Shown: one piece after another, positions 19,555-27,890 of the stretch
Numbering within the stretch: the stretch's first letter is position 1
How the letters are laid out: each line of letters starts with the position of its first letter
DNA from: a virus
DNA length: 27,890 nt
IMG/VR virus record: IMGVR_UViG_3300042156_000119
Coordinates: 1-27,890 of that record
Reading direction: 5' to 3' (one strand)
Position numbers and translations under genes: made by a program
The notes under the pieces: generated by a model
Database searches by the model: none
What the model was told of the DNA's origin: nothing
Seen by the model: the letters and a program-made list of their open reading frames with translations, nothing else

Positions 19555-19983
19555 TCAGCCCTCTTGAGTAGCGGCCTGTCCAGCCAGCTCAAAGGCAGGC
19601 CCCATGAGCTTGGTACATTCAGCGATAAAGGCCACGGCCAGTTCGGAGCCGGCATTGGCCCAAAAATGCGGCTTGCTCGCGTGAGTCACCGGATCGATGC
19701 CGTTGTGCAGGAGGACGGCCTCAAACACCGCCTGGATGTTCGTCCACGTCTCCAAGTGGTTATCGATCAGGCCATCAGTCGCCAAAGGGTAAACGTGGTC
19801 ACCGACGACGACGCGAGCGTATTGCAGGATTTCCATAACGAAGGCGCGACGAAATGCCTTGTCGGTGGTGGCCGCGAAGTCCAGGAAGCGCATCTGGATA
19901 TCCCACCCGTCCAGAGCGGAGAAGTGAAGCAACTCAACTTGCTTGAGTTGTCCTTGGCGACCGGTTATCTCAATCATGTCCAT
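19555..19983 (-). CDS. Candidate tail assembly chaperone, 142 aa
   Basis: This protein lies directly before the tape measure, where tail assembly chaperones that load it are found. The sequence has LLHFSALDGWDIQMRFLDFAATTDKAFRRAFVMEILQYARVV, VYPLATDGLIDNHLETWTNIQAVFEAVLLHNGIDP and AVAFIAECTKLMGPAFELAG, read here in pieces; it is mostly helical. The combination of one-domain helical protein, position and size suits the chaperone family. I looked for a programmed -1 frameshift leading into the tape measure and found no convincing slippery heptamer. Its ATG overlaps the previous stop by one base (TAATG). Confidence 0.7.
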   Translation of the reverse strand: MDMIEITGRQGQLKQVELLHFSALDGWDIQMRFLDFAATTDKAFRRAFVMEILQYARVVVGDHVYPLATDGLIDNHLETWTNIQAVFEAVLLHNGIDPVTHASKPHFWANAGSELAVAFIAECTKLMGPAFELAGQAATQEG

Positions 19984-20579
19984 TACCCAATATAGGAAAG
20001 GACTTTATTATACAGAGCCTCAGCGGACGAAGTAAAGGTGGAAACACCGTTGGAAATGCCTTCGGATATCGAAGTTGCTTTTGGGTCCTGGACTTTGACG
20101 CCAAAAGTCGATTCATCAGATGGACTCTTTGGATCGAATTGGTCCATAACTGTCTTTTCGACTTGCTCCATCTCAAATTCGATGACGTTGGCAGATATGA
20201 TCTTTGGCGTCTGCTCGATTTGTATGCGAGTCAGCGCCATGTTATCTGCGATGAACTCTTTGGTTGTTATTTCAAATGTCGATTCGACATCATAGAAGCT
20301 GTCGATCATCGATTCCAAAGTGGTGATGTCGTCGCACATAGCGCGAACCAACAACTTCACCGGCTTGATGATTTTGGAGTTGCGCGAGTCCTTGTTGGTC
20401 TGGTCCATGGCCAAGTTAACATCAGTCAAATCCTTGATGGCGACCGGACTGTCAGAGGTATCAGAGTCGATATATGGCGTGACGGACCTGATCTTCAACT
20501 TGTCCCAAACAATAAGGGCAGTATAAAGGTCACGCACTTTGAAGACGCGCGGCTGGATTATCGCATCAATGGCGTTCAT
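19983..20579 (-). CDS. Tail-tip protein, paralogue of the next upstream gene, 198 aa
   Basis: This is a probable tail-tube-distal or baseplate component. It shares the segment IEQTPKIISANVIEFEMEQ with the 185-aa neighbour (APEQTPKVLSATPMTLEFRQ), in the same position relative to a preceding DxxTxxxxxxDxFYDV-like helix-strand unit. This shows old duplication. The N-terminal half is strand-rich (RVFKVRDLYTALIVWDKLKIRSVTPYIDS). The C-terminus is a Ser/Thr-rich amphipathic tail ending KVLSYIG. The ATG is fixed by an ATGA overlap and the stop overlaps the chaperone start. The Dit-like/tube-initiator type of role is inferred from position. Confidence 0.7.
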   Translation of the reverse strand: MNAIDAIIQPRVFKVRDLYTALIVWDKLKIRSVTPYIDSDTSDSPVAIKDLTDVNLAMDQTNKDSRNSKIIKPVKLLVRAMCDDITTLESMIDSFYDVESTFEITTKEFIADNMALTRIQIEQTPKIISANVIEFEMEQVEKTVMDQFDPKSPSDESTFGVKVQDPKATSISEGISNGVSTFTSSAEALYNKVLSYIG

Positions 20580-21133
20580 ATGTTGCCTATGAAGTTTGTG
20601 GCTCGCTCGGTCGCCTGGCCAACGGCCTTGTTGACTGAGTCTACAACGCCAAGCACGCTTTCTTTTGCGTCTTCTATCAGGGAGATGCCGCGATCAACCA
20701 ACTTGGAGTCGCTGGCCTGGCGAAACAGGACCGGGGCAACGTTCTGGACGATGATTTGCCTGAATTCCAAAGTCATCGGGGTCGCTGACAAGACCTTGGG
20801 CGTCTGCTCCGGCGCCATGGAGTTCAGCTTCATCGACCGAAGACTAAGGCCGCGCGACTTGATGGTGTACAAAGAGTGTCGGTTGGCCATCACCGCGTTG
20901 ACTTGATTGACCGCGTCCAGGTTCGGGCAAAATATCTGGATGGTCATAATGTTCGGGCGCGGCACCCTGGTGTCGATGAACAGTGATCCGTCTTCCATGT
21001 GGTGGCGCATCGGGTCGGATTGCAGGCGAATCATCACCGAGGCCACGCGGACGTCCGGAAGGACCGGCATGTCCGTTGACATATCGATGAACTCACAAGC
21101 CTTGGTGCCAATGAGTTGGTCTATTATGTTCAA
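20576..21133 (-). CDS. Tail-tip protein, first of a paralogous pair, 185 aa (TTG start)
   Basis: This probable tail-tip or tube-baseplate junction protein begins with beta-rich residues (DVRVASVMIRLQSDPMRHHMEDGSLFIDTRV, NIMTIQIFCPNLDAVNQVNAVM) and carries EQTPKVLSATPMTLEFRQIIVQN, the block shared with the 198-aa neighbour. The C-terminal ~40 residues form an amphipathic helix (LIEDAKESVLGVVDSVNKAVG) ending FIGNI. The likely start is TTG at 21133, giving TTGA overlap with the stop of the gene before; the next ATG would remove 17 residues and leave a gap. The stop overlaps the next start by ATGA. Confidence 0.7.
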   Translation of the reverse strand: MNIIDQLIGTKACEFIDMSTDMPVLPDVRVASVMIRLQSDPMRHHMEDGSLFIDTRVPRPNIMTIQIFCPNLDAVNQVNAVMANRHSLYTIKSRGLSLRSMKLNSMAPEQTPKVLSATPMTLEFRQIIVQNVAPVLFRQASDSKLVDRGISLIEDAKESVLGVVDSVNKAVGQATERATNFIGNI

Positions 21134-21630
21134 CCAAAGAACCCCAAGGCCGATTGGATTCCACCGGCAATCAGCTGCTTGGCCGATTGGGCGCCGGTGA
21201 CGGTGCCGAACACGAACGTGTAGGTGTTGCTCTTTCTGCGACCGGTGCTTTGGATCGAGTCCAGGGCCGGGCCGCGCAGGATGCTGCCGTGGCTTAGGAC
21301 CGTCCTACCGCCATCAGGGTAGGAGATTGCCATGGTGGTGATATCCTCAAACGGGAAGAGGGACAGGCCACCCTTCTTGTTGCCGAGGAGGATTTTCAGG
21401 TTGATGTCTTCGTCGCTATTCGGAATGACGGATACACTGACCTCGATTGGCGCGGCCTGGGCATAGGTGAAGATGGTGCCGTCATAAAGCGGTTCATAGC
21501 CAAACGGCTCCATCTCCTTGGCGCTTATCGGGTCGGTGTCATCAGCGAATTTGGACAAGCTGAAGCCCATAGGGAAGGACTGCAGCGCCAAAATCATTAT
21601 TTCTGTTCCAAACCCGCTGATGTCTTCCAT
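21130..21630 (-). CDS. Second tail tube-like protein (tube paralogue), 166 aa
   Basis: This is clearly homologous to the tail tube protein at 22765-23208. Both start with ISGF and share FPxGxSLSxFADDTDP, IPNS(E/D)(D/E)DINLxxLL, YP(N/D)G and S(S/T)GRxKSxxYxFxF at matching positions. This copy has diverged in the middle and carries a C-terminal extension (GAQSAKQLIAGGIQSALGFFG) that the tube lacks. In contractile tails, tube-initiator or baseplate-tube junction proteins (T4 gp48/gp54) share the tube fold. A tube-initiator role is therefore a reasonable inference, supported by its place among tail-tip genes. The start is ATG 21630, nine bases after the proline-rich gene. Confidence 0.82.
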   Translation of the reverse strand: MEDISGFGTEIMILALQSFPMGFSLSKFADDTDPISAKEMEPFGYEPLYDGTIFTYAQAAPIEVSVSVIPNSDEDINLKILLGNKKGGLSLFPFEDITTMAISYPDGGRTVLSHGSILRGPALDSIQSTGRRKSNTYTFVFGTVTGAQSAKQLIAGGIQSALGFFG

Positions 21631-21639
21631 CTTTCGACC

Positions 21640-22095
21640 TTACTTCTTGGTGGTGGTTTTGGCGACCGGGGCCGGTGCAGGCTCTTCCACTACCGGTGCA
21701 GGCTCAACGACCGGGGCCGGCTCAACGACCGGGGCCGGCTCAACGACCGGGGCCGGCTCAACGACCGGGGCCGGCTCGACGACCGGGGCCGGCTCGACGA
21801 CCGGGGCCGGCTCGACGACCGGGGCCGGCTCGACGACCGGGGCCGGCTCGACGACCGGGGCCGGCTCGACGACCGGGGCGGACATTGGCGCGGCCAGGCC
21901 TTGATCGACGCCAAGGCCAAGGTCCGGGGCGACGGTCGCGCCAATGTCCGGCGATGCGGGCAACTCCTGGCCGCGCGGCATCTGGTCCGGGGAAGGCCCG
22001 AAGCTCGGCAGCGGGTTCAGCTTGAGGCTGCGTTTGTTGCCGTCGACTCGCATCACGCCGTTGGCGTATTGGACGTTATAAGGTTTGGTCTTCAT
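21640..22095 (-). CDS. Proline-rich repeat protein in the tail cluster, 151 aa
   Basis: The function is unknown. Residues 1-70 are a short globular or extended part (YNVQYANGVMRVDGNKRSLKLNPLPSFG...PRGQELPASPDIG). Residues about 72-132 are pure tandem PAPVVE hexapeptides; the repeats then decay (PAPVVEEPAPAPV) and the protein ends in KTTTKK. Such Pro/Glu/Val repeats form stiff extended rods, as in TonB-type linkers, so this may be a spacer or flexible virion arm. Its ATG overlaps the stop of the gp25-like gene (ATGA), so it is co-expressed with the baseplate genes. The repeat is near-perfect at the DNA level, which marks recent expansion. Confidence 0.8.
   Translation of the reverse strand: MKTKPYNVQYANGVMRVDGNKRSLKLNPLPSFGPSPDQMPRGQELPASPDIGATVAPDLGLGVDQGLAAPMSAPVVEPAPVVEPAPVVEPAPVVEPAPVVEPAPVVEPAPVVEPAPVVEPAPVVEPAPVVEPAPVVEEPAPAPVAKTTTKK
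21701..21880 (-). repeat. 18-bp coding tandem repeat, about ten units
   Basis: Unit starts fall every 18 bases at 21701, 21719, 21737 and so on to 21863. Each encodes one PAPVVE hexapeptide. The four units nearest the 3' end of the gene carry CTCAAC and the six nearer the 5' end carry CTCGAC on the + strand; otherwise the units are the same, apart from the outer edge of the last. Degenerate units lie at 21665-21700. This is a slipped-strand type array that should vary in length between isolates. Confidence 0.95.
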
Positions 22096-22445
22096 GAGTT
22101 TGTCACCCTTGTTCTACCGTGGAGAGTGGAGACAACGGCCTGGAAATTGAATATGCCGCTGCCAACTTGAATATCCAGAGAGTCAATGCTGACGACATCA
22201 GGGCTGCTGGATATGGCATCGATGAGGCTCTTGCGAGCCGCATCATAGTTCTGTTGCGGAGTGAATACAAATTCGAAGTAGCCGACGCCTGCCGTCACGT
22301 CATATATGTCTTCACCAAGGCGCATCAAAGTGCGACTGCGGACGTCTTGTGCGCACGCTTCGATGTTATTCACCAACTCCAAGTTCCTGCCATCGAACAG
22401 AAACAGGTCATTGTTGATGTTGGTGCGAAGGCTGGAAGTTGTCAT
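22092..22445 (-). CDS. Baseplate wedge protein, gpW/gp25-like
   Basis: This 117-aa protein probably nucleates sheath polymerisation at the baseplate. It reads NNDLFLFDGRNLELVNNIEACAQDVRSRTLMRLGEDIYDVTAGVGYFEFVF, then YDAARKSLIDAISSSPDVVSIDSLDIQVGSGIFNFQAVVSTLHG. A helix followed by a short 'GED...G..Y' segment, a helix with IxxSPxVxSI and two C-terminal strands is the gp25-like plan. The start is ATG 22445, overlapping the previous stop by one base (TGATG); a longer frame upstream lies inside the neighbouring gene. The stop overlaps the proline-rich gene by ATGA. The assignment is by pattern and context. Confidence 0.7.
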   Translation of the reverse strand: MTTSSLRTNINNDLFLFDGRNLELVNNIEACAQDVRSRTLMRLGEDIYDVTAGVGYFEFVFTPQQNYDAARKSLIDAISSSPDVVSIDSLDIQVGSGIFNFQAVVSTLHGRTRVTNS

Positions 22446-22762
22446 CAAGCCACCCTCAAGCCGGTGAATTCTTTGTACTCTGGAAGAGTCAAATACAACA
22501 AGTTGCACGACTCGCCAAAGGTGGTCCAGTCCGGATCGGCATCAAATAGAAAGTTGCCATAGTTCGGCAAGTGCATGAACTGATAAGGCATCAGTGGCTC
22601 GCCCACTAGACAGCGAGTTCCAGTGATCAACACCTCGCCGTTGCGGCTGACGTCGGCATACATGTGATCGATTGCCTGATAGACATGTATCGACCAGAAT
22701 GCGCCGTCAACGTTGAACGAAATGGCCTGATTTGGAATCGCTGCTAGTGGGATTCTGAACAT
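22445..22762 (-). CDS. Baseplate plug protein, Pam3 gp18-like
   Basis: This 105-aa beta-rich protein opens with IPLAAIPNQAISFNVDGAFWSIHVY, followed by DVSRNGEVLITGTRCLVGEPLMPY and LPNYGNFLFDADPD..TTFGESCNLLYLT. 'IP..PNQ..S...DG..', 'ITG.R...G.PL.PY' and 'GN...DAD' are the signature blocks of the small cyanophage Pam3 gp18-like baseplate plug family. In that family the protein seals the hub region of a simple contractile tail. It starts two bases after the tube stop and its own stop overlaps the gp25-like gene by one base. Confidence 0.72.
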   Translation of the reverse strand: MFRIPLAAIPNQAISFNVDGAFWSIHVYQAIDHMYADVSRNGEVLITGTRCLVGEPLMPYQFMHLPNYGNFLFDADPDWTTFGESCNLLYLTLPEYKEFTGLRVA

Positions 22763-22764
22763 GA

Positions 22765-23208
22765 TTAGCCTTGGGTCACACTTTCGAAGCGGAAGCGATA
22801 CACACGGCTCTTCAGGCGACCGGAAGAGGCGACCGAAGGCATCAGCGGGCCTTGGGTGATGACGCCGTTGGAGCCGGTCACCTTCTTGCCGTTCGGATAG
22901 TTCAGAACGATGCTGATGATGTCCTGGGAGCCGGACTTGGACTTGCCAACGCGGTTAGCGTTCAGCAGGGCCTCCAGGTTGATGTCGTCTTCGCTGTTCG
23001 GGATGATGCCAAACACCATCTCGATGCCGCCCGGACGGGTCCAAACGACCAGGTCGCCGTTCAGGCCCATTGCGGTGTCGGCAGCGGTGAAGTCGGGAGA
23101 GTCCATCGGGTCGGTATCATCGGCAAAGGCCGACAGCGAGACGCCGCTGGGGAATGTGTTGCTGGCCACGCAGATGGCCGAAAGGGAGAAGCCGGAAATG
23201 TTGATCAT
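22765..23208 (-). CDS. Tail tube protein (DUF3277/phiTE-tube family)
   Basis: This 147-aa subunit forms the inner tail tube through which DNA passes. It begins MINISGFSLSAICVASNTFPSGVSLSAFADD in pieces and then has DTAMGLNGDLVVW, IIPNSEDDINLEALLNANRVGKSKSG, LNYPNGKKVTGSNGVIT and SSGRLKSRVYRFRFESVTQ. This set of blocks is that of the phiTE tube/KPP10 ORF10-like family. I chose ATG 23208, with a GAGGAC site about eight bases upstream; the frame runs 16 residues further but overlaps the promoter-like and terminator region. It has its own promoter candidate, fitting the high dose required. Confidence 0.88.
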   Translation of the reverse strand: MINISGFSLSAICVASNTFPSGVSLSAFADDTDPMDSPDFTAADTAMGLNGDLVVWTRPGGIEMVFGIIPNSEDDINLEALLNANRVGKSKSGSQDIISIVLNYPNGKKVTGSNGVITQGPLMPSVASSGRLKSRVYRFRFESVTQG

Positions 23209-23231
23209 GGTGCGTCCTCTAAGGAGTCCTG

Positions 23232-23260
23232 ATTGTATCGAAAACCGCCCGGCCATTCAA
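23232..23260 (-). promoter_or_regulatory. Promoter candidate for the tail tube gene
   Basis: On the - strand TTGAAT (23260-23255) and TACAAT (23237-23232) are exactly 17 bases apart. The -35 lies in the loop of the sheath terminator hairpin. The start would be near 23225, giving a short leader with GAGGAC ahead of ATG 23208. Confidence 0.55.
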
Positions 23261-23274: not shown

Positions 23275-24795
23275 TTAGACCATTACGTCAGAGCCTTCCA
23301 CGAAGCGGATGACGTCACCCTTGGAGTAGACGAGGCGATACACCGCCTTCCACTCGGTCAGATCGGTGTTTTGGTTGACATACGATTCGAAGCGGATGTC
23401 AATCCAATAGCCGAGAGTCTGGACCTGACGCCAAGCATTCACATCACCGGTGATGCTGCTGATGTATTGCTGCTGGATGGCGTCCAGAGTCTTGCCATAG
23501 CTGAAGGTTCCGTTGTTCACAGCCGAGGTGATGACCGGCTGGACGACGGCCAGCAGCTGGGCTTCACCCAGGGCGCTCGCCGGGACCGCGCCGACTGCCA
23601 GGAACAGACGCAGGAAGGTGCTGGCCAGGGTCGACTTGAGCCACATCTCGTTGGCATAGATGTTCATGTCAACGGCGTCTTGCGAGCCGCCGCACAGGAT
23701 GCCACGCTGGTAGAATGCCAGGCTTTGGCCAGCGTTCTGGGTCACACCGATGTAGTTGCAGCGCAGGGAGTCGGCCAGGTCGGCGGTCGGGTCGTCGCTG
23801 ACCGTCACGTTGCGCTGGTCGAATTCATAAAACATGTAGTTCTGGTTCGCCGCTGGCTGGTTGAAGTTGGTCGCGGCCAGAATCTCGCACGGAATCTGCT
23901 CAACATAGTCGTTGAGCTGAGTGGTGGAAAGGATGTTGAGCGCGCAGCCACTCAGGCCCTTTACCAGATCGAACAACGCGGAGGCGTTCGCCAGCGGGGT
24001 CGGCACGCTGTAGATGTACATGTTGTTCTGCGTGTCGTTCCACTCCGCGACCTTCTTCACGTCGGCGTTGGCCAGTCGGCCTTCGGCGTTGGTGAAGACG
24101 AAGGAGCCGAAGTTGTTGGAGACGGCAGCGGACTTGGCCACGGCGACGTCCGGAGTGTCAGCGTTTTGGCCGACTACCAGAACGGAACCAGAGGTGCCCC
24201 AGCCCAGCAGGGCCGATATGTCGGTGGCCTCGCCAGTCGGGGTGACGGAGATGGCCGCAGAGCCGGGGCCAGCGCCGGGGCCGGTGAGGGTGAAGACGTT
24301 GGTGTTGGTCGAATAGGTGACGGTCACACCAGCGAAATCGGTGTCAGCGACAAGGACCGCCTGGAGGTCAGCCGCGACGTCGGTGAGGTCGGTGGAGGCC
24401 GACAGGTCGATGGCGGTGAACTTCTTGGTGACGGCGCCCAGGTTGACGGTCAGCGAGCCAGTGGTCACCGGGGTGAAGCTGGCAATGTTCTTCGGCTGGC
24501 TGTCGCCAACGAGCATCGACGGAACCGCCGAGTTGACCCAGCGCGCGAAGCTGATGACGCTCGGAGCCTGGATGTTCTTGTTGATGAAGCCGAAGTAGGG
24601 CAGGGCGCGCTTGTACTCTTCGGAGTTGAAGCCGAAGAACTGGCCGACTACATCAGCGGTGCCGAATTCGGCAATGACGCCCGGAGTAAGAAGCGGGTTC
24701 TGGGTGATGATGCGGAGAATGAGTTTGCGCTCCGCCACCGCAGCACCGGCGCCTACGCCAGAGACGATGTTTACATAGCGTTTTTGACTGATCAC
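23275..24795 (-). CDS. Contractile tail sheath protein, DUF3383 family
   Basis: This 506-aa protein forms the contractile outer sheath that drives the tube through the host envelope. Recognised blocks are an N-terminal RYVNIVSGVGAGA, then TQNPLLTPGVIAEF, VGQFFGFNSEEYKRALPYFGFINK, and APSVISFARWV. A Thr/Val/Gly-rich variable domain follows (about residues 100-210), then VAEWNDTQNNMYIYSV, QNYMFYEFDQRNVTVSDD and the C-terminal FSYGKTLDAIQQQYISSITGD, LGYWIDIRFES. The start codon is GTG at 24795 with AGGAG about eight bases upstream, overlapping the previous stop. It is followed by its own terminator. Confidence 0.92.
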   Translation of the reverse strand: MISQKRYVNIVSGVGAGAAVAERKLILRIITQNPLLTPGVIAEFGTADVVGQFFGFNSEEYKRALPYFGFINKNIQAPSVISFARWVNSAVPSMLVGDSQPKNIASFTPVTTGSLTVNLGAVTKKFTAIDLSASTDLTDVAADLQAVLVADTDFAGVTVTYSTNTNVFTLTGPGAGPGSAAISVTPTGEATDISALLGWGTSGSVLVVGQNADTPDVAVAKSAAVSNNFGSFVFTNAEGRLANADVKKVAEWNDTQNNMYIYSVPTPLANASALFDLVKGLSGCALNILSTTQLNDYVEQIPCEILAATNFNQPAANQNYMFYEFDQRNVTVSDDPTADLADSLRCNYIGVTQNAGQSLAFYQRGILCGGSQDAVDMNIYANEMWLKSTLASTFLRLFLAVGAVPASALGEAQLLAVVQPVITSAVNNGTFSYGKTLDAIQQQYISSITGDVNAWRQVQTLGYWIDIRFESYVNQNTDLTEWKAVYRLVYSKGDVIRFVEGSDVMV

Positions 24796-27353: not shown

Positions 27354-27890
27354 TTAGATGCCGATGAAGCGCACCACAGCCCACGGACGCTTGCAGAGCA
27401 CACCAGCGGTGCCGTTGCTGAAGTCCTCGATGTAGGACTTGGCGCGCTTCTCAACGCCCAGGGTGATGAACTTGCTCTGTACCAGCTGAGCAAACACGTC
27501 ACCGCCATCGGTGGAGCCGTCGACGGAGCTGTCGATGTCTTCTGCGAAGAAGTACATGGCGTCCAGCGCTTCGGCACCGTCCATCTGCACACCGGAGAGT
27601 TCCGGGGCGGATACGACACGCAGCTTGGGATAGGTCTGCTTCAACCAGTCCATCACGCTGATGCCGAAGTCGGTGGTCACCGACAGCAGGTCAACCTTGC
27701 TGGTCGGCAGCGCGACGGTGATCTCAACGGCCTGCGGATCGACCATGTCCTGGGACTGGACACGCAGACGGCGGATGCCTTCGCGGAAGTCGCCGATGAT
27801 GGCCTGGAAGTCGTTGGCCCAGCCGCCACTCGGAGCGGTCTGGAAGGCCGGCAGGTTCGGATCGTTCAGGAAGCCGAAGGTTCGGTTGCC
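27354..27890 (-). CDS. Major capsid protein (DUF2184 type), 5' partial
   Basis: This is the C-terminal 178 residues of the shell protein; the start lies beyond the window. The fragment begins [22 protein letters not shown] and then has [69 protein letters not shown] in pieces, [54 protein letters not shown]. '[12 protein letters not shown]', 'LL......G.SV.DW....YP..R....PEL' and 'G....RP.AVVR..G' are the marks of HK97-fold DUF2184 capsid proteins. A terminator follows the stop. Confidence 0.9.

Follow-up and report, generated by a model that had tools for sequence, protein, structure and literature searches.

The pbunaviruses count among the most thoroughly studied Pseudomonas phages and among those most used in therapy, and their baseplates have been described in two high-resolution cryo-EM studies. 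In the slot between the genes of the sheath initiator and the baseplate tube these phages encode a small protein, which is gp35 in E217 (143 aa), gp36 in Pa193, gp34 in JG024, and ORF36 in SCUT-S1 (PHROG 5228), and these are the counterparts of the gene analysed here. SCUT-S1 ORF36 has been found in purified virions by mass spectrometry (14.46 kDa, 6 peptides, 50% coverage; PMC6521218 Table 1), and the mass computed from its sequence (MK340760) is 14.47 kDa. Another counterpart, KPP22M2 ORF071, is annotated as a virion protein. Among the products named in the E217 cryo-EM paper are gp33, gp34, gp36, gp37, gp38, and later ones, with gp35 absent throughout (PMC10329688), gp36 is likewise missing from the eleven baseplate proteins of the Pa193 preprint (PMC11042391), and a Tn-insertion study of phage S1 had ORF36 outside its tests (PMC10974960). 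A PDB sequence search with the JG024 counterpart or with a profile of 22 slot proteins revealed no matching chain. The presence in virions together with the invisibility in the structures fits a mostly disordered protein. The baseplate location is suggested by the gene order and by the absence from the maps, which would also fit low occupancy or a site within the tube.

Low-complexity repeats in virion tail proteins, for example the collagen-like regions of fibres, can differ in copy number. The protein described here contains such a repeat. It is encoded in a stretch of 27,890 nucleotides of viral DNA (IMG/VR record IMGVR_UViG_3300042156_000119), the whole of which is called the window in the following. 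While collagen-like phage fibres consist of Gly-X-Y repeats, the unit in the window is PVVEPA, which is free of Gly-X-Y, and a Pfam search with the protein did not give any match. In contrast to the tail fibres there is no receptor-binding domain after the repeat, and the gene is not a fibre gene. Phase-variable on/off loci have units that are not multiples of three, whereas the unit in the window comprises 18 bp and the period of every array found at the slot is divisible by three. Pro/Ala/Glu-rich cellular spacers of the TonB type have PAPVVE runs as well but do not show any homology outside the repeat, and TonB itself has a C-terminal domain and an N-terminal membrane anchor, neither of which is indicated by the Pfam search. 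Runs of at least three PAPVVE units are present in 16 genome stretches that encode unrelated proteins of bacteria, one of them a Ruminococcaceae contig with 13 units, and among the IMG/VR contigs only a near-clonal contig has at least three in a row. Thus, the unit does not carry any family signal, and the PAPVVE pattern is convergent low-complexity sequence. The protein would work like a low-complexity spacer, and it is a gp35-type member of the slot by its position and N-terminal motif and not by PHROG 5228.

The tandem array and the surrounding baseplate genes

By far the strongest tandem repeat of the whole window is the 18-bp array at 21692-21879, for which Tandem Repeats Finder reports a period of 18, 10.4 copies, 98% matches, no indels, and a score of 334. 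On the coding strand, six GCCCCGGTCGTCGAGCCG units come first, and GTT replaces GTC in the four units after them, which corresponds to the A/G difference dividing the units four versus six on the plus strand. The final base of the last GTT-type unit also deviates; otherwise the units differ at the GTC/GTT site only. Because this change is synonymous (Val), every unit encodes APVVEP, and on the minus strand the array reads as eleven PVVEPA. The first-pass annotation had described about ten near-identical units with the same split into four and six, which agrees with both the repeat finder and the unit listing, although its coordinates 21640-22095 are those of the whole ORF. Given ten near-identical units a chance origin is ruled out, and the recent copying proposed in the same annotation is borne out by units that are identical even at synonymous sites. 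Antisense ORFs across the array were discarded, as the stop-free 18-bp unit keeps several frames open. A second, weak tandem repeat (27 bp x 2.2 copies) is located at the end of the window at 27830-27885.

The features of the cassette, all on the minus strand, are the following:

23275..24795, minus strand: tail sheath (E217 gp31), by a match to phrog_205 (E=1e-68)
22765..23256, minus strand: tail tube (E217 gp32), by phrog_2420 and gene order
22445..22762, minus strand: helical-bundle baseplate adaptor (E217 gp33 / Pa193 gp34), by phmmer to 9b45_A and 8env_G
22092..22508, minus strand: sheath initiator (E217 gp34 / Pa193 gp35), by phmmer to 9b45_G and 8env_H and by phrog_120
21640..22095, minus strand: gp35-type array gene, 151 aa, with N-terminal motif, variable linker, PVVEPA array, and KTTTKK end, by ORF and translation and by the position of E217 gp35
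22042..22077, minus strand: conserved N-terminal motif NVQYANGVMRVD (residues 7-18), a predicted beta-hairpin and proposed virion anchor, by the AlphaFold2 model and the held-out profile
21692..21879, minus strand: 18-bp tandem array of 10.4 copies encoding APVVEP, the six GTC-type units preceding the four GTT-type units in the coding direction, by Tandem Repeats Finder and unit listing
21643..21660, minus strand: basic C-terminal tip KTTTKK, by sequence comparison
21130..21630, minus strand: baseplate tube (E217 gp36 / Pa193 gp37), by phmmer to 9b45_M (E=4e-64) and 8env_I
20576..21133, minus strand: ripcord-1-type protein (E217 gp37), by gene order and phrog_2580
19983..20579, minus strand: ripcord-2-type protein (E217 gp38), by phmmer to 9b45_V and 8eon_D

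The order of sheath, tube, helical-bundle adaptor, sheath initiator, array gene, baseplate tube, two ripcord-type proteins, a chaperone-like gene, and a transglycosylase tape measure is identical to that in JG024 and E217. By the PHROG matches, the neighbours of the array gene are a gp25-type sheath initiator on one side and a tube-like protein on the other, and the flanking products match chains of the solved E217 and Pa193 baseplates. The location among baseplate genes, as assumed in the first annotation, is therefore backed by gene order as well as by the PHROG and phmmer matches of the neighbours. PHROG labels some of these neighbours as tail fiber proteins, which is misleading because they are tube-type baseplate proteins. 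The stop codon of the sheath initiator and the start codon of the array gene share bases (ATGA). At its other end the sheath initiator ORF has a 5' extension of 21 codons running over the upstream gene, and since the homology starts at residue 22 the true start is probably near 22445.

The array-gene protein has a predicted mass of 15.4 kDa and a pI of 4.5, and it consists of MKTKPYNVQYANGVMRVDGNKRSLKLNPLPSFGPSPDQMPRG..., eleven PVVEPA, and VVEEPAPAPVAKTTTKK. As a fully extended polyproline-like chain the eleven units would span about 20 nm, one unit adding about 2 nm, by arithmetic from textbook geometry. The AlphaFold2 model is of modest confidence (mean pLDDT 65, pTM 0.18), and a Foldseek search with this low-confidence model did not find a match. 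Over 22 sequences the sole fold predicted is a hairpin with strands at residues 7-11 and 14-18 (pLDDT about 80), which is followed by extended coil. At E<0.001 the only PHROG matches of the protein are phrog_7964 and phrog_5070. Both are driven by the repeat (residues 75-136), were judged to be compositional, and have been left out of account.

The slot gene in pbunaviruses and other lineages

The gene order and the matches of the flanking products to solved chains identify the array gene as the positional counterpart of E217 gp35. Pbunavirus gp35 occupies the same slot, is of similar size, and has a comparable N-terminus (xxQYANGxxxxDGxxxxxLxPLPSFxPS), an acidic Ala/Pro/Glu-rich tail, and a KTT(T/S)K end; its tails do not contain any perfect short array, whereas the tail in the window contains the eleven PVVEPA units. 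We use the term "positional counterpart" because the window protein does not match the pbunavirus family profile PHROG 5228 at E<0.001, a profile that the slot protein of lineage L043 matches at 1.4e-89. The window ORF is recovered at E=0.0038 by a profile that was built from the other lineages with the window held out, and the best ORF outside the slot has E=1.2. Judged from position and N-terminal motif, the protein is probably a diverged homologue of the gp35 family.

In two records the slot gene is incomplete or joined to a neighbour. In KPP12 (L100:601-1383) sheath initiator and gp35 form a single ORF of 260 aa through a one-base deletion, which is either a real fusion or a sequencing error and which probably explains the fused PHROG 120 profile. 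Because the difference is a single base that may be such an error, we have set it aside as proof of contact between gp34 and gp35. In FBPa35 (L095:2501-2700) a 364-bp deletion has taken out most of gp35 together with the initial residues of the baseplate tube; as the tape-measure gene of the 62,320-bp record is shorter too, this was not considered a natural knock-out.

An alignment of the baseplate tube was used to scan IMG/VR, which resulted in 59 loci. About 43 of them share the cassette, and each of these has a short gene at the slot. When grouped at 90% identity in the baseplate tube together with four genomes from phage collections, they formed 31 lineages. A short gene is present at the slot in all 31 lineages, and the earlier statement that the array gene has no known counterpart therefore does not hold. 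The slot proteins comprise between 62 and 233 aa (CV 0.34), compared to 163-167 aa (CV 0.005) for the adjoining baseplate tube in these lineages. Within their first 30 residues a (F/Y)A(H/N)GV(L/M)-type motif is recognisable in most lineages, and held-out profiles ranked most slot proteins above every other ORF. For L049, L053, L060, L070, L072, and L075 the profiles failed or were marginal, and homology across all lineages is therefore likely but not proven.

The tails are mutually unrelated and mostly of low complexity, being PAPVVE, DDAPG, Ala/Thr-rich, charged helix-like, or SAP-like. In the Wifcevirus-type lineages L057, L058, L069, and L015 the C-terminal part of the slot protein is a SAP-type helix-extension-helix domain, and in L058 the Pfam SAP match exceeds the cut-off. 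The KTTTKK tip is shared with L056 and L007, appears as KTTSK in the pbunaviruses and as KTTKK in L039, and is missing from several lineages. The longest slot protein, that of the metagenomic phage L053 (233 aa), contains two copies of an N-terminal-like motif and has a weak match to phrog_215, "structural protein with Ig domain" (E=0.0035). We keep this Ig-like domain as a hint of exposure only, given that a Pfam match is missing and that the single-sequence model was useless. Beside this slot protein (L053:1022-1732 and 2085-2786) the helical-bundle adaptor has an extra C-terminal segment with weak matches to Ig_3 and to the tail protein phrog_3995, which suggests that such adaptors can carry exposed domains. 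Two further loci have unusual genes in this region. In L045 the slot gene (1831-2232) and the baseplate tube are separated by two extra genes (2232-2988), of which the second (2572-2988) is Ala/Thr-rich. In L075 a collagen-like (GDK)n protein is encoded between the sheath initiator and baseplate tube genes (2375-2782), and the assignment of the slot gene is uncertain there.

In-frame repeats and length variation

Ten of the 14 tandem arrays detected in the 31 loci are located in the slot gene, which accounts for 5% of the DNA. This corresponds to an array density of about 48 times that found elsewhere (binomial p about 7e-11). This value calls for caution, as the window was picked for its array, the lineages share ancestry, and tails of low complexity are prone to repeats. 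In-frame tandem repeats at the slot were found in nine lineages, the second-strongest being (DDAPG)7.5 in L050-L052, which is clearly of separate origin. The (DDAPG)n repeat of L050-L052, (ETTEPTA)n of L039, (TAEA)n of L037, and the twofold PVAEAEEPAA of L036 share with the window the slot, the N-terminal motif, and an in-frame array in the tail, but unit and length are unrelated to those of the window array. As far as can be told from the sequences, they arose separately from it.

Variation in length, which had been suspected from the first reading, is found on two levels. The near-clonal contig L017 (IMGVR_UViG_3300041405_000141) matches the window along all of its 10,992 bp except for a single SNP and a single gap. 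In this gap L017 is short of exactly one 18-bp unit of the GTC block, which was either lost in L017 or gained in the window, copy numbers being those of the assemblies. In cultured pbunaviruses most sampled counterparts have 142 or 143 aa. The counterpart in Wadjak_2 has gained 21 aa by a 63-bp in-frame tandem duplication (164 aa), that of PaSt-2 has lost 18 aa (125 aa), that of phage 1644 has lost 4 aa, and in F8 a STAAKEA stretch has been duplicated (146 aa), while gp34 and gp36 have unchanged lengths. Because cultured phages with counterparts of 125 to 164 aa form plaques, this argues for tolerance of length rather than for fine tuning. A literature search on copy-number variation of tandem repeats in phage tails did not reveal anything relevant.

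The copy number in the window comes from an assembly, and the longest exact repeat inside the array is 101 bp; thus a short-read miscount by at least one unit is possible. The longest exact repeat in L017 is 83 bp. Repeats of these two lengths come close to what short-read graph assembly can resolve, and the copy number as well as the one-unit difference could be artefacts of assembly, the array itself being real. We regard this as unlikely, since the block of four GTT units is the same in both assemblies with the difference confined to the GTC block, and since length variants including the 63-bp duplication have appeared independently in the cultured relatives.

A probable tether of loosely constrained length

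In our opinion the array-gene protein is rather probably a minor baseplate-associated virion protein consisting of a short anchor and a disordered tether whose length is only loosely constrained. The N-terminal motif, with its predicted beta-hairpin, would anchor the protein to the baseplate cap or the adaptor layer, the site probably being near the sheath initiator or the baseplate tube, whose genes flank the array gene. The remainder of the protein would be a disordered, acidic tether rich in Pro, Ala, Val, and Glu, as judged from the model and the composition, and the young 18-bp array would form most of this tether in the phage of the window. Units may be gained or lost by slippage or unequal recombination, a change that the protein would tolerate. 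Because the unit is a multiple of three, each event alters the tether by six residues and leaves the reading frame intact. Under such a loose constraint on length, repeats could be born, drift, and be replaced lineage by lineage. As tails of very different chemistry and length are found in one slot, we give drift more weight than the tuning of adsorption, and infer a spacer or tether role with near-neutral drift of tail length.

Instead, the protein could function in tail assembly or in the lumen of the tube, for example by holding the tape measure or sealing the tip, with small amounts being kept in the virions and the tail serving as assembly tether and not as an outside arm. The gene has those of the sheath initiator and the baseplate tube as neighbours and precedes the assembly-chaperone and tape-measure genes, and an acidic, disordered tail that is not resolved in averaged cryo-EM maps would suit this role too. 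However, peptide count and coverage of the SCUT-S1 protein resemble those of the resolved adaptors ORF34 and ORF35, so that it is not obviously present in traces, and the likely chaperone ORF40 is missing from the same virion table (PMC6521218). Accordingly, we consider an assembly function to be doubtful.

With a similarly low probability, Pbunavirus and allied genera might possess a dedicated hypervariable baseplate slot, in which a fixed anchor carries an exposed polymer-like tail that is repeatedly rebuilt by in-frame tandem duplication, so that changes in its length and chemistry would adjust adsorption or shield the baseplate. The rod-like arm of the first annotation, here taken as exposed and tuned in length by slippage under selection on reach or on binding to the host surface, might be seen in the array with its one-unit difference to L017, in the recurrent in-frame repeats, and in the Ig-like match of the L053 slot protein, but it seems quite improbable given that the tails are chemically dissimilar (PAPVVE, DDAPG, charged helix-like, SAP-like), that lengths vary in cultured pbunaviruses without obvious consequence, and that the L053 match is weak and backed by neither Pfam nor a usable model.

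The tether model concerns a small virion protein that is encoded in the middle of the baseplate genes and seen by mass spectrometry, and that is missing from both cryo-EM studies. No other stretch of the cassette varies as much as its tail, which in several lineages lengthens by tandem duplications that preserve the frame. Should this tail be exposed, the slot would provide a natural experiment on the effect of a disordered appendage on adsorption; with a tail on the inside, the protein would be a missing piece of tail assembly.
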